Position numbers and translations under genes: made by a program. Of a stretch of 64,000 nt of DNA, positions 2,583 through 61,212 are shown one piece after another. The stretch is taken from assembly GCF_038595005.1 (NCBI RefSeq), contig NZ_CP151997.1, forward strand, positions 1,302,001-1,366,000, given 5' to 3'. The DNA is from Chryseomicrobium sp. FSL W7-1435. Lineage in GTDB: Bacteria; Bacillota; Bacilli; Bacillales_A; Planococcaceae. The notes below the pieces were generated by a model that saw nothing but the letters and a program-made list of their open reading frames with translations, made no database searches and had not been told where the DNA came from. The stretch's first letter is position 1; the number at the start of each line of letters is the position of its first letter.

Positions 2583-2796
2583 TAGAGGCTGGGACAAATA
2601 AAGCAATAGTAAGAAAGTTGAGTGGAGTGTAGGAGCTGACTCCAGTGGGATTAAAAGTCGCAACTCAATTTCAACGAACAGCAAAATAGTGGCGCCAACG
2701 GAACGTAGCCCCGAATCGGAGTTCAACATACAAAAATCAGCCAGTTCTCTAGATTTTATTCTAGAGAACTGGCTGATTTAATTTTGTCCCAACTTC
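2583..2796 (+). repeat. Dispersed composite repeat, copy 1 (no internal module)
   Basis: A non-coding element of about 214 nt. It opens with GAGGCTGGGACAAAT and closes with ATTTTGTCCCAAC, so the ends are inverted repeats (TGGGACAAA at 2590-2598, TTTGTCCCA at 2783-2791). Inside are the block GTTGAGTGGAGTGTAGG, the hairpin-like GGAGCTGACTCC, and a 19-bp stem at 2734-2779. The same blocks in the same order recur at 10776-11127, where a further 126 nt is present. The small open frame on the minus strand here is repeat sequence and I do not call it a gene. The element fills most of the 417-nt gap between tRNA-Glu and amt. Confidence 0.85.
2734..2789 (-). terminator. Terminator for amt (within repeat copy 1)
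   Basis: A perfect 19-bp stem, AAATCAGCCAGTTCTCTAG (2734-2752) with its complement at 2761-2779. It is flanked by A-rich sequence on the left and ATTTTG on the right, so it can work in both directions. It lies about 45 nt after the amt stop and is the terminal hairpin of the dispersed repeat. Confidence 0.8.
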
Positions 2797-8495: not shown

Positions 8496-9314
8496 ATGAC
8501 AAGACAATGGGAATCACTCCGTACATATGAAGATATCAAATATGAATTCTTCAACGGAATTGCTAAAATCACAATCAATCGACCAGAAGTTCGAAACGCG
8601 TTTCGTCCTAAAACGGTCCATGAATTAATCGATGCGTTTTCACGTGCTCGTGACAACCAAGATATCGGTGTCATCATTTTAACTGGTGAAGGCGAAAAAG
8701 CGTTCTGTTCAGGTGGCGATCAATCCGTACGTGGCCATGGTGGTTATGTAGGCGATGATGAAATTCCACGTTTGAACGTTCTTGACTTACAACGTCTGAT
8801 TCGTGTCATTCCAAAACCAGTAGTAGCCATGGTAGCGGGTTACGCAATCGGTGGAGGCCATGTCCTTCACGTCGTTTGTGACCTTTCTATTGCAGCAGAC
8901 AATGCACGTTTTGGTCAAACAGGACCACGAGTGGGCTCTTTCGATGCTGGATATGGTTCAGGTTACCTTGCGCGTATCGTAGGACACAAAAAAGCGCGTG
9001 AAATTTGGTACCTATGCCGTCAATACGACGCACAGCAAGCTTTAGATATGGGACTTGTTAACACAGTCGTTCCTTATGAAAAACTAGAAGATGAAACAGT
9101 TCAATGGTGTGAAGAAATGCTTGAGATGTCTCCAACGGCAATTCGCTTCTTAAAAGCTGCGATGAATGCTGATACAGACGGTCTTGCAGGCCTTCAGCAA
9201 ATGGCTGGGGATGCAACATTACTTTACTATACAACGGATGAAGCAAAAGAAGGCCGTGACGCATTTAAAGAAAAGCGTAAGCCGAATTTTGGTCAATTCC
9301 CACGTTTCCCTTGA
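8496..9314 (+). CDS. menB: DHNA-CoA synthase MenB
   Basis: Crotonase-fold naphthoate synthase, 272 residues. It closes the second ring of menaquinone from o-succinylbenzoyl-CoA. The signatures [20 protein letters not shown] and [20 protein letters not shown] are intact, and the C-terminus ends FPRFP as in other MenB proteins. AAGGAGG at 8482-8488 precedes ATG 8496, with one base between the menH stop and this start. It is followed by a hairpin with a T-rich tail before menE. Confidence 0.97.
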
Positions 9315-9321
9315 TTTCAAT

Positions 9322-9350
9322 CAAAGCTGTCCAATTGGGCAGCTTTTCTT
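9322..9350 (+). terminator. Hairpin between menB and menE (partial terminator)
   Basis: A 9-bp stem, AAGCTGTCC with GGGCAGCTT (one T-G pair) and loop AATT, followed by TTCTTTG. It lies inside the men operon, so it probably lowers menE expression relative to menB rather than ending the operon. This is an inference from position. Confidence 0.6.
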
Positions 9351-9372
9351 TGTACTGGAAAGGACTGAGTCG

Positions 9373-10824
9373 ATGTATCCAAACCTTTTAGTAAAGCGTG
9401 TGCAACTGACTCCGGACCGAGTGGCCCTGGAAATAGAAGGGCAGCAATGGACTTGGCGTGAAGTCTATGAACGCGCGCTCAACCTTGCCCAAGACTTTCC
9501 CTGTTCAAGTGGGGAAAGAGTCGGGTTTTGGTCAAAAAATAGTGAAACGATGTACTTCTATATTCAAGCGGCTCTTTTAAAACAATGTGAACTCGTCTTT
9601 TACAATGACCGTTTGACGGAAGAAGAATTCCTTTTTCAACAACTAGATTCTGAGGTTGTCTGGACAGTGACGGATCGTAAGGACCGGGCATTTCTAGAGA
9701 ATGTCTATTTATATGAACAGTTCGTATCACTAAAATCAGTACCTTTTGAAGTGCAGCCTAATTGGAGTCGTGAGCAGACCATTTCCATCATGTATACATC
9801 TGGTACCACTGGACGACCTAAAGGAGTGCGACAAACGCTCGAAAACCATGTAACAAGTGCGTTAGGCTCTGCACTGAATCTTGGCGTATTACCAGAAGAT
9901 AAATGGCTTTGTGTAATGCCTCTCTATCACATCAGCGGATTTTCAATGATCATGCGGTCTTTACTCTATGGGTCAAGCCTTCAATTGCATGAAAAATTTG
10001 AACCGCAAACTGTCTTGGAGGCCATCCGCAAAACCGGCGTAACGCATTTATCAGTTGTTACAACCATGCTTAGTCAATTGTTAAGAGAATTTGAGCAAGA
10101 CGAAGAGTCATTACCTTCGTCGTTTCGAACAATCTTAGCAGGGGGTGGCCCGGTACCTATTCCTTATCTTGAACGAGCGCAAAGTAGTGGTTTTCCTGTA
10201 GTTCAAACTTACGGAATGACCGAGACTTCTAGTCAAACCTGTACTTTGCTGCCCGAAGAGGCAATTCGCAAAGCAGGTTCTGCGGGCAAGCCTTTGTTTT
10301 TTGCGGATGTTCGCATTGACGGAGACCAAGAAGGAGAGATTTTAGTAAGAGGGGCTCATGTTACTCCTGGTTATGTGGGGCATGCTTCTACTCTTCCAGC
10401 AACTTCTGAAGAGGGATGGTTACGAACGGGAGATATCGGAAAATTTGATTCAGAGGGCTATCTTTATATTCTAGATCGACGCTCTGATCTGATTGTCTCG
10501 GGCGGAGAAAATATCTACCCTGCAGAAATCGAGCAAGCGCTGCTATCCCATCCTGAAGTGTTGGACGCTGGAGTTGTTGCCAAACTAGACGATAAATGGG
10601 GGCAAGTGCCGTTTGCGTTTATAGTTGTTAAGGGAGAAGAACAGCCTGACTTAGCACTGTTTCTTTCTAGTAAACTAGCGAAATACAAGCAACCTGTTGG
10701 CTATCGATTTGTGGAGATACTTCCGCGGAATGCATCGAACAAACTCGTTCGCAGAGAACTAAAAAAATGGATTGAAAAAGAGGCTGGGAATATAGAAACA
10801 GAACTCAACGAGTTAGAAAGTTGA
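9373..10824 (+). CDS. menE: o-Succinylbenzoate-CoA ligase MenE
   Basis: Acyl-CoA synthetase that activates o-succinylbenzoate for MenB, 483 residues from ATG 9373 (GGAAAGGA ten bases upstream). The open frame extends further upstream into menB in another frame, but that part is not homologous. AMP-binding motif YTSGTTGRPKGV, TYGMTETSS and the C-terminal GGENIYPAEIE are present. The last 14 codons and the stop (10780-10824) lie inside a dispersed repeat, so the natural C-terminus appears to have been replaced or extended by repeat sequence. No menC follows, unlike the usual Bacillus order. Confidence 0.93.
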   Translation: MYPNLLVKRVQLTPDRVALEIEGQQWTWREVYERALNLAQDFPCSSGERVGFWSKNSETMYFYIQAALLKQCELVFYNDRLTEEEFLFQQLDSEVVWTVTDRKDRAFLENVYLYEQFVSLKSVPFEVQPNWSREQTISIMYTSGTTGRPKGVRQTLENHVTSALGSALNLGVLPEDKWLCVMPLYHISGFSMIMRSLLYGSSLQLHEKFEPQTVLEAIRKTGVTHLSVVTTMLSQLLREFEQDEESLPSSFRTILAGGGPVPIPYLERAQSSGFPVVQTYGMTETSSQTCTLLPEEAIRKAGSAGKPLFFADVRIDGDQEGEILVRGAHVTPGYVGHASTLPATSEEGWLRTGDIGKFDSEGYLYILDRRSDLIVSGGENIYPAEIEQALLSHPEVLDAGVVAKLDDKWGQVPFAFIVVKGEEQPDLALFLSSKLAKYKQPVGYRFVEILPRNASNKLVRRELKKWIEKEAGNIETELNELES

Positions 10825-10877
10825 GTGGAGTGTAGGGGCTGACTCCAGTGGGGTCAAAAGTCGGAACGTGAGACCCC

Positions 10878-10999
10878 TTTAGATGTGGAGAACGTCATGC
10901 TAGAAAGTCCGAGAAAATCAGGCGTGCCAAGTGAGGCGTTCTTGGCCTCGGTTGGAGCGACTGCTTTTGGAGCGTCTTTCTGACGTTCGCAACTCGATT
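10878..10999 (+). repeat. Internal module shared with the 60.9-61.2 kb tandem array
   Basis: 122 nt from TTTAGATGTGGA to AACTCGATT. The reverse complement of each unit at 60912-61212 matches in order: TTTAGATGTGGA, AATCA-GCGTGC, GAGGCGTTCTT-GCCTC, GCGA-TG-TTTT, TTTCT-ACG, AACTCGATT. A hairpin GAGGC-N7-GCCTC lies at its centre, extended by CCAA/TTGG. Confidence 0.8.
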
Positions 11000-11065
11000 T
11001 CAATGAGTCGAATATAGGCGCGCCCACGGAACGCAGCCCCGGAATGGAACTCAACATACGCAAAA

Positions 11066-11121
11066 AAATCAGCAAGTTCTCTAAAATTCACCCTAGAGAA
11101 TTTGCTGATTTAATTTTGTTC
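11066..11121 (-). terminator. Terminal hairpin of repeat copy 2
   Basis: An 18-bp stem, AAATCAGCAAGTTCTCTA (11066-11083) with TAGAGAATTTGCTGATTT (11094-11111), one G-T pair, with A-rich sequence before and ATTTTGTT after. It can stop both menE and the leftward zinc-binding gene. Compared with copy 1, the ninth stem pair changed from C-G to A-T on both sides, so the structure is conserved. Confidence 0.8.
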
Positions 11122-11133
11122 TAATTTTCTTTT

Positions 11134-60777: not shown

Positions 60778-60900
60778 GGTTTCCATAAAACGGCTTCAGA
60801 TCTACAAATACGTTTACTTGTTCTAGAAAGTGAGTTACTTGTCTTAGAAATCGAGTCACTTGCCTTAGAATTTATAGTACTTGTTCCAGAACGGCCGCTC
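60778..60900 (-). repeat. 123-nt modular element, copy C3
   Basis: Read on the minus strand: head GAGCGGCCGTTC, four 21-nt modules starting TGGAACAAGT, TAAGGCAAGT, TAAGACAAGT and TAGAACAAGT, tail TAGATCTGAAGCCGTTTTAT followed by GGAAACC. Head and tail match copies C1 and C2, but all module core words differ from theirs while resembling each other. Confidence 0.85.
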
Positions 60901-60911
60901 AGTTTGTAGAG

Positions 60912-61212
60912 TGGCGTTCTCCACATCTAACTCAATCGAGTTCCGAACGCCTTCCACATCTAACGCAGTCGAGTTGCAGGCGTTAGAAATACATTCAAAA
61001 ATCAATCGTACCCACAGAGGCAAAGAACGCCTCTATGTGCACGCTTGATTCCCGAAGCATTTCTGGGCGAACGCCTTCCACATCTAACCGTAATCGAGTT
61101 CCAGGCGTTAGAAATACATTCGAAAATCAATCGCACCCACAGAGGCAAAGAACGCCTCTATGTGCACGCTTGATTCCCGAAGCATTTCTGGGCGAACGCC
61201 TTCCACATCTAA
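60912..61212 (-). repeat. Tandem array of ~124-nt units
   Basis: Two nearly identical units start with CGCCTTCCACATCTAA at 60948 and 61072 (periods 124 and 125); a partial third begins at 61197, and a shortened one lies at 60912-60947. Each has a hairpin GAGGC-AAAGAAC-GCCTC. On the minus strand a unit runs from TTTAGATGTGGA to GAACTCGATT and is homologous to the module at 10878-10999. Together with the adjacent modular element it fills the 537-nt gap between the 62-aa gene and rpsD. Open frames here are short and lack ribosome sites. Confidence 0.9.

Follow-up and report, generated by a model that had tools for sequence, protein, structure and literature searches.

A probable IS1182-type MITE with an exchangeable apex, apparently inserted in place of terminator stem-loops in Chryseomicrobium

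Two groups of described elements are among those closest to the ones considered here. Pneumococcal BOX elements have the plan boxA-boxB(n)-boxC and, like RUP elements, make target duplications according to the cited account (PMC3049150). IS1272 and TnSha1, both of the IS1182 family, are described in the cited texts as using stem-loops, often terminators, as targets that are wholly or partly deleted, and no target duplication is made (PMC5678879, PMC4923244). IS1182 is also named among the families over-represented between convergent genes (PMC9208149), and bacterial MITEs are the subject of a review (PMC10969869).

The stretch of DNA analysed here (the window, 64,000 nucleotides, positions 1302001-1366000 of the single 2,710,361-bp contig of Chryseomicrobium sp. 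FSL W7-1435) contains two copies of an outer element, O, and units of a module, M, both within O and apart from it. The explanation that we favour, at a probability of roughly 0.7, is that O is an IS1182 MITE which replaces terminator stem-loops, carries a terminator-like hairpin of its own and has an exchangeable apex, into which M was captured, probably repeatedly.

The genome shares its genus group with three sampled sister genomes (G001, G002 and G003), and sister genomes of Chryseomicrobium and Tetzosporium were used for comparison. The copy census covered the window and 71 fetched stretches (218,771 bases, picked via searches); the number of candidates scored per genome was limited, so that copy counts from the genome, family, order and class searches are minimum values. 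A scan of contigs with a loose pattern gave 97 stretches, and among the 80 listed the M profile matched 52; it matched none of the remaining 28, from unrelated organisms, which were for that reason read as chance hits of the pattern. Named scan loci fitting the M profile came from Chryseomicrobium aureum, C. excrementi and Tetzosporium hominis. Locus L102 of G001 and locus L141 of C. aureum have identical flanks, and G001 is therefore probably C. aureum.

The window elements and their relatives in the genome

The features of the window are as follows.

2585..2796, + strand: outer element O, copy that has most likely lost its module (search for terminal inverted repeats, TIRs, and block census); left TIR 2585-2599, right TIR 2782-2796
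2665..2691, + strand: what is left of the right edge of M, at the position of the 25-nt apex (profile census, junction scores)
2734..2779, + strand: terminator-like hairpin in this copy of O (inverted match, 91%)
9166..10824, + strand: menE-like gene (o-succinylbenzoate--CoA ligase), last codons and stop inside O
10780..11127, + strand: O with one M (copy alignment, block census); TIRs both degenerate, left 10780-10794
10784..10877, + strand: left outer block, OL (profile match)
10881..10998, + strand: module M, an imperfect hairpin of about 120 nt in the apex of O (profiles; fold -47.7 kcal/mol, z -3.3)
10999-11016, + strand: junction after M (profiles)
11017..11123, + strand: right outer block, OR (profile), including a terminator-like hairpin at 11066-11111
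About 60894-60965, - strand: further fragments of M units (profiles)
60969..61210, - strand: two tandem M units without O, directly past the rpsD terminator (profiles)

The hairpin at 11066-11111 folds at -23.6 kcal/mol (z -9.0) and is followed by T-rich DNA, and one M unit of the 60969..61210 array folds at -57.7 kcal/mol (z -7.4). The left TIR of the copy at 10776 has three mismatches to the IS end described below, and the C. aureum orthologue of this locus holds other repeats and is not a clean empty site.

The original prediction, that the elements at 2583-2796 and 10776-11127 are homologous and differ by a module related to the downstream array, was partly borne out: the two align at 78% over 142 nt and 91% over 57 nt (E about 1e-27 and 1e-17), the CG/TCG points lie 126 nt apart, and the inserted part, read against the opposite strand of the 60.9-61.2 kb array, resembles it at 71-76% (E 3e-12 and 4e-11). 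The elements were also said to lack coding capacity, and a coding element was ruled out by the absence of any ORF of at least 100 aa within either copy, the menE frame entering the second by 45 nt. The details of the comparison came out differently. The second element is not exactly 126 nt longer, since the full lengths are 214 and 352 nt and additional small indels bring the difference to 138; the 126-nt block proposed as the module consists of the last 15 nt of OL and 111 nt of the M stretch, the module itself being 10881-10998; and in place of a plain insertion between two CG dinucleotides, M occupies the position of a 25-nt apical hairpin.

The copy at 2583, which had been taken for an empty outer element, is without this 25-nt apex and retains the right edge of M. 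Its junction gave a mean local alignment score of 15.4 (9-21) against 14 M-bearing copies and of 5.0 against 23 hairpin-bearing ones, and these scores and the remnant of M rule it out as an empty site. Alignment of whole elements did not separate the two classes, the top-scoring partner of this copy being one with the 25-nt apex, so that the case for a deletion rests on the junction. Judged from it, M was most likely lost by deletion between short direct repeats, namely two TCG(N)AAC-like sites, and because the right edge of M is retained, the 126-nt block would be the footprint of that deletion.

In the stretches examined of the 2.71-Mb genome, profiles of OL, OR and M identified at least 38 copies of O with the order OL-X-OR. 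The apex is the 25-nt hairpin in 22 of these, a 26-nt variant in one, M in 14 and a remnant of M in one, the window's 2583 copy; among the 14 with M, 12 have a single unit (partly deleted in one case), one has two and one has four. A claim that the module is present zero, one, or two or more times therefore holds for the genome at large, and the description of a modular, nested, mobile-looking and non-coding element was supported. In an alignment of 7 module-bearing copies with 16 others, the 25-nt hairpin, which reads GCAGGAGCYTGCGACGAGGAGRCTC in most copies, stands at the place of the module in 15 of the 16, the exception again being 2583. Elements of the form M(n)-OR without OL are also present (2143112, with six M; 756006, seven; 1100254, four), as are minimal TIR-hairpin-TIR elements of 95-108 bp (2059853, 2304870 and 2370025). 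Where both ends could be recognised (20 copies), O is 211-715 bp long. By crude ORF calls, no ORF runs across any of the 38 O clusters; 23 have convergent neighbours and none has divergent ones, one cluster being placed by a single known neighbour. O is thus short, non-coding and dispersed, as a MITE is.

No Rfam family matched at E <= 1 in five loci with O, O plus M and M arrays, nor was there a match at gathering score at the O and M places of the window, so a known Rfam family was set aside for the tested loci.

Some further observations concern the placement and surroundings of these repeats. All 38 OL-X-OR copies lie between 0.47 and 2.50 Mb, the genome ends at 0-0.47 and 2.5-2.71 Mb being without them; a covariance model of the core found six more matches outside the census stretches (171477, 890320, 1164489, 1288516, 1471803 and 2207270), the one at 171 kb falling outside this range. 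The last codons and stop of the menE-like gene come from O (window 10780-10824), while in C. aureum (L135) the same gene seemingly ends at the TAG of an M unit, and on crude ORF calls six M loci share 1-2 nt with the end of the gene upstream of them. On the minus strand at window 60780-60900 there are degenerate repeats of about 20-25 nt, such as TTTCTAGAACAAGTAACTCGA or CTCTGACATTAGCGGCTCCA, in a stretch that ends in a conserved TTATGGAAACTAAT box, and the same arrangement is found downstream of many M runs in several loci. Inverted repeats of another kind, with GGTACCTGTGC...CAGGTACC around AATTCACTACAAT-like arms, and repeats of the GGTGACAGGCACC type were seen at L187 and L135 and near genome positions 794865, 800623, 833679 and 844306.

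Element ends and insertion target

A search of the genome with the 15-bp end, two mismatches being allowed, found 68 sites, compared with 11 for a control. Five pairs of ends lie 1,807 bp apart and delimit five resident IS copies, of which copies 2-5 are 0-2 nt away from the first. One protein of the five was scanned, that of the first copy; it matched NF033551 (IS1182 transposase, NCBIfam) at 414.6 bits, above the cut-off of 270, as well as the Pfam families DDE_Tnp_1_6, DDE_Tnp_1 and DUF772. The suggestion that a transposase elsewhere might share the TGGGACAAA ends was thereby supported. The ends of O, (A)GAGGYTGGGACAAAA, are those of the IS, many being exact or within two mismatches of the 15-bp TIR. 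O would accordingly belong to the resident IS1182-family element as a non-autonomous, MITE-like form, most likely mobilised in trans by the transposase of the full-length IS.

The IS copies themselves (for example, L091 636-2442) have T-run hairpins inside both ends, GCGCGCACGGCAG...CTGCTGTGCGCGC TTTTTT and TGACCATC...GATGGTCA TTTTTT, and may for that reason bring terminators on both sides. At L106 of G001, the left end of an IS1182-like copy directly adjoins an M-bearing O core.

The target was approached through O-type sites whose flanks matched sister-species DNA. The sister loci had been fetched for carrying M somewhere, so that the comparisons are not a random sample of sites; among them, a sister lacked O at nine loci, seven with a full O in this genome and two with OR only (465320, a weak match, and 2186348). 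Because two loci have two sisters each, there were 11 comparisons. The sister carries a hairpin at the empty site in 10 of the 11, or at eight of the nine loci (-10.7 to -34.1 kcal/mol), while the matching host sequence in this genome folds at -2.8 to -10.9 kcal/mol. The contrast is small at 1158818 (-11.7 in the sister versus -10.9 here) and in one comparison for 2458828 (-10.7 versus -8.2), and at 731810 the sister has no clear hairpin (-8.6 versus -4.2). Three other loci that were compared, 2059853, 1160850 and 1312780, are not empty sites. Terminators are frequent after genes regardless, and the telling point is that they are absent at these places in this genome.

The IS itself gave a corresponding case. 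At 1417075 a hairpin (-16.4 to -18.4 kcal/mol) directly past the presumed stop codon is present in each of the three sister genomes; here the IS occupies that place, with a T-tract on its right and a host residual of -7.6, the right flanks aligning only from about 180 nt outward. For a second IS copy, none of the three sister genomes offered an orthologous flank. At the 2583 locus, G003 has a terminator-like hairpin and G002 (L229, beside an amt match) a collapsed TIR-TIR hairpin, AAAGAGGCTGGATCAGAATCCAGCCTCTTTTT, that is likewise terminator-like, from which it appears that the ends of the element may make a terminator by themselves.

The target duplications that the original prediction proposed to look for did not appear. 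Among 25 distinct elements with both ends recognisable (20 of O type and five IS), none has one of 4 nt or more, which rules out target duplication on insertion of O at that length. The count was made on 27 rows, two elements being entered twice; 3-nt duplications occur in one row (shuffled mean 1.6) and 2-nt duplications in seven (shuffled mean 4.6). The flanks are biased in composition, the left 5 nt being 76% A and the right 5 nt 68% T, compared with 32% and 34% at 21-40 nt away.

The pattern at eight of the nine O loci and at the one IS locus, with 731810 as the exception, is that of IS1272-type insertion, in which the stem-loop is removed and no target duplication is left. The target would be a stem-loop, usually an intrinsic terminator directly after a gene, and insertion would delete it, leaving its A-rich and T-rich flanks. 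As O has a terminator-like hairpin of its own near its right end, insertion should also restore termination, to judge from the sequence.

Core, apex and module

The centre of O was modelled and searched for in samples of the family, order and class. The core was found in at least 107 of 121 sampled family genomes, representing 18 of 19 genera; in at least 137 of 150 order genomes, those listed all belonging to the same family and being largely the same genomes; and in at least 21 of 151 class genomes, 10 of these outside the family. Within it, 97.2% of cells are paired, and two-sided changes affect 6 pairs, against a mean of 3.7 in shuffles (12 of 500 as high), and 21 cells, against 7.8 (0 of 500); the number of further pair types did not exceed that in shuffles (271 of 500). 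Folded by itself, the core of a single copy did no better than shuffles (z -0.42), and whole O elements did (z -6.15 and -6.30). The centre of O is a palindromic core that recurs in most sampled family genomes, with an apex that would be exchangeable between the 25-nt hairpin, M and M(n).

Matches to M number at least 110 in the sampled stretches of the genome, 101 of them nearly full length. An alignment of 45 diverse M sequences, drawn from this genome and from sister species, gave a consensus hairpin of 41 pairs, with 94.3% of cells paired (29-45% in slid controls) and two-sided change in 33 of the 41 pairs, against a mean of 20.6 in shuffles (0 of 500 as high). These changes in M are most simply read as the result of selection on structure. 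Matched changes can, however, also arise when template switching corrects imperfect palindromes, and this could have contributed to them.

The covariance model of M, built from genus copies only, matched in at least 27 of the 121 sampled family genomes, in eight of 19 genera, some distant matches being spaced one unit apart (for example, in G036, G105 and G007); all of six distant loci that were read aligned with M, and one of the six is a tandem array with a period of 121. M runs are also found at orthologous places in sister species, sometimes with different unit numbers, these being loci selected for M. Free runs have sharp starts, many of them right after a T-run or stop codon, and many end with truncated units. 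At 776052 the C. aureum orthologue is without M and the terminator is kept in both species, so that M was inserted downstream there and replaced no terminator. M is an independent family of tandem hairpin repeats at gene ends, with loci of its own. Similar hairpin repeats are common in Bacillus genomes.

The pair changes, strong in M and present to some degree in the O core, could be taken to mean that O and M are parts of functional RNAs, 3'-end or regulatory, that are under selection and only secondarily mobile. Their gene-end positions and terminator-like hairpins, and the M runs at orthologous places (again, at loci selected for M), agree with such a role. We nevertheless regard it as unlikely, because copies adjoin unrelated genes, the TIRs are common to an IS, loci filled in one species are vacant in its sister, and template switching offers another source of matched changes.

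In the sister species, M occupies the apices of other types of O-like core (L102 and L141, which are the same sequence; L103-L108; L121); some of these cores (L104, L107) have IS1182-type ends, and a hairpin belonging to one of these types is also found empty (L120). It is doubtful, if somewhat less so than a functional RNA, that M enters hairpin apices by a targeted insertion of its own, through an enzyme directed to single strands or hairpins, as opposed to recombination. Replacement at the same place in several O types and species, the occurrence of one hairpin (AGCTGAGACC..GGCTCAGC) both with M and empty, and the sharp starts and truncated last units of free runs are as such an activity would leave them. 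On the other side, no autonomous partner with M ends was met in searches that were aimed at other things, and the O-associated M of this genome form nearly one subfamily. In a tree of M units (186 rows, 118 columns), they require 4 changes where shuffling gave a mean of 36.5, which fits a few captures followed by spread.

The same tree bears on the number of captures under the favoured explanation. The O-associated M of the sister species also require 4 changes (shuffled mean 8.8), and a single clade of O-associated M from this genome and the sisters was rejected (p 1e-7), which favours more than one capture, although gene conversion with free M units could mimic that result. In a tree of OL plus OR, made from the 36 of 38 rows that were long enough, the apex types are intermixed, with 12 changes against a mean of 11.3 in shuffles, and a single clade of M-bearing O copies, as expected of a single origin, was rejected (p 3e-5) on a poorly resolved tree, in which one of 33 inner branches is well supported and which gene conversion would blur. 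Repeated capture of M and recombinational swapping between O copies are both possible. We infer that O apices probably acquired M on more than one occasion, after which it was propagated or exchanged between O copies, perhaps through gene conversion or recombination.

The original prediction had named loss of an ancestral module by deletion as the finding that would overturn it. A deletion does appear to explain the 2583 copy; for the family, with 23 short-apex copies and independent M loci, it does not. In its general form, the argument would be that O plus M is ancestral and that every short-apex copy has lost M, and 2583 and 2287631 can indeed be seen as deletion derivatives of M-bearing copies. 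This is very improbable, given that the 25-nt apex is not a part of M and recurs, slightly changed, in eight of 13 dereplicated sister-species cores without M, that the core was found in at least 107 of 121 family genomes and M, with its genus-only model, in at least 27 of the 121, and that the O-associated M of different species do not form one clade.

A broader extension of the favoured explanation is that the apex of a mobile palindromic element such as O is a general exchange site, at which M has, in different species, repeatedly taken the place of the apical hairpin in IS1182-type MITEs. This is tentative, and rather unlikely as matters stand. If true, it would mean that hairpin is replaced by hairpin at two levels, a MITE taking the place of a terminator and a module that of an apex, perhaps by the same stem-loop-replacing chemistry at both.

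Comparison with described systems

Searches of the non-subscription literature, judged mostly by title or the opening of the abstract, revealed no recognisable description of O or M, and the repeat sequences searched as text matched only unrelated literature. M and the O core are widespread in the family and have no Rfam match at the tested loci. Because O takes the place of a terminator and supplies a terminator-like hairpin, the present observations suggest a reason why such repeats may do little harm. With its many copies and its filled as well as vacant sites, the genus allows direct tests of the replacement model and of how modular repeats originate.

Among described repeats with internal structure, BrickBuilt of Porphyromonas gingivalis is likewise a MITE, in which a leader and a tail enclose a tandem repeat; its unit, as given in the cited text, is 23 nt without spacers, whereas M is a covarying hairpin of about 120 nt with its own loci (PMC4596501). 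SPRITE of Streptococcus pneumoniae is similar in being an interspersed, terminator-like repeat and differs in that the cited account reports no significant likeness to an IS TIR and no empty site that could be established (PMC3049150).

The plan of O and M resembles that of the pneumococcal BOX elements. In both, as far as the cited description goes, outer boxes enclose a variable count of internal tandem modules (here a 25-nt apex or M in one, two or four units), the TIR is somewhat similar to that of a resident IS, lone modules exist, and the fold predicted for the internal module is largely independent of the outer parts; BOX duplicates its target, whereas none of 25 elements here did so (PMC3049150). 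O also differs from BOX in its definite alternative apex of 25 nt, its own terminator-like hairpin and its IS1182-type ends. M differs from boxB in that it often lies outside O, and boxB is smaller than M.

A joining of BOX-like modular repeats with stem-loop replacement of the IS1182/IS1272 kind was not found in the literature searched. With IS1272 and TnSha1, as described in the cited texts, O shares the transposase family, the deletion of a stem-loop target and the lack of target duplication; these are an IS and an IS-based transposon of staphylococci, whereas O is short and without a transposase (PMC5678879, PMC4923244). To the plan of these elements, O adds a terminator-like hairpin of its own and a modular core.
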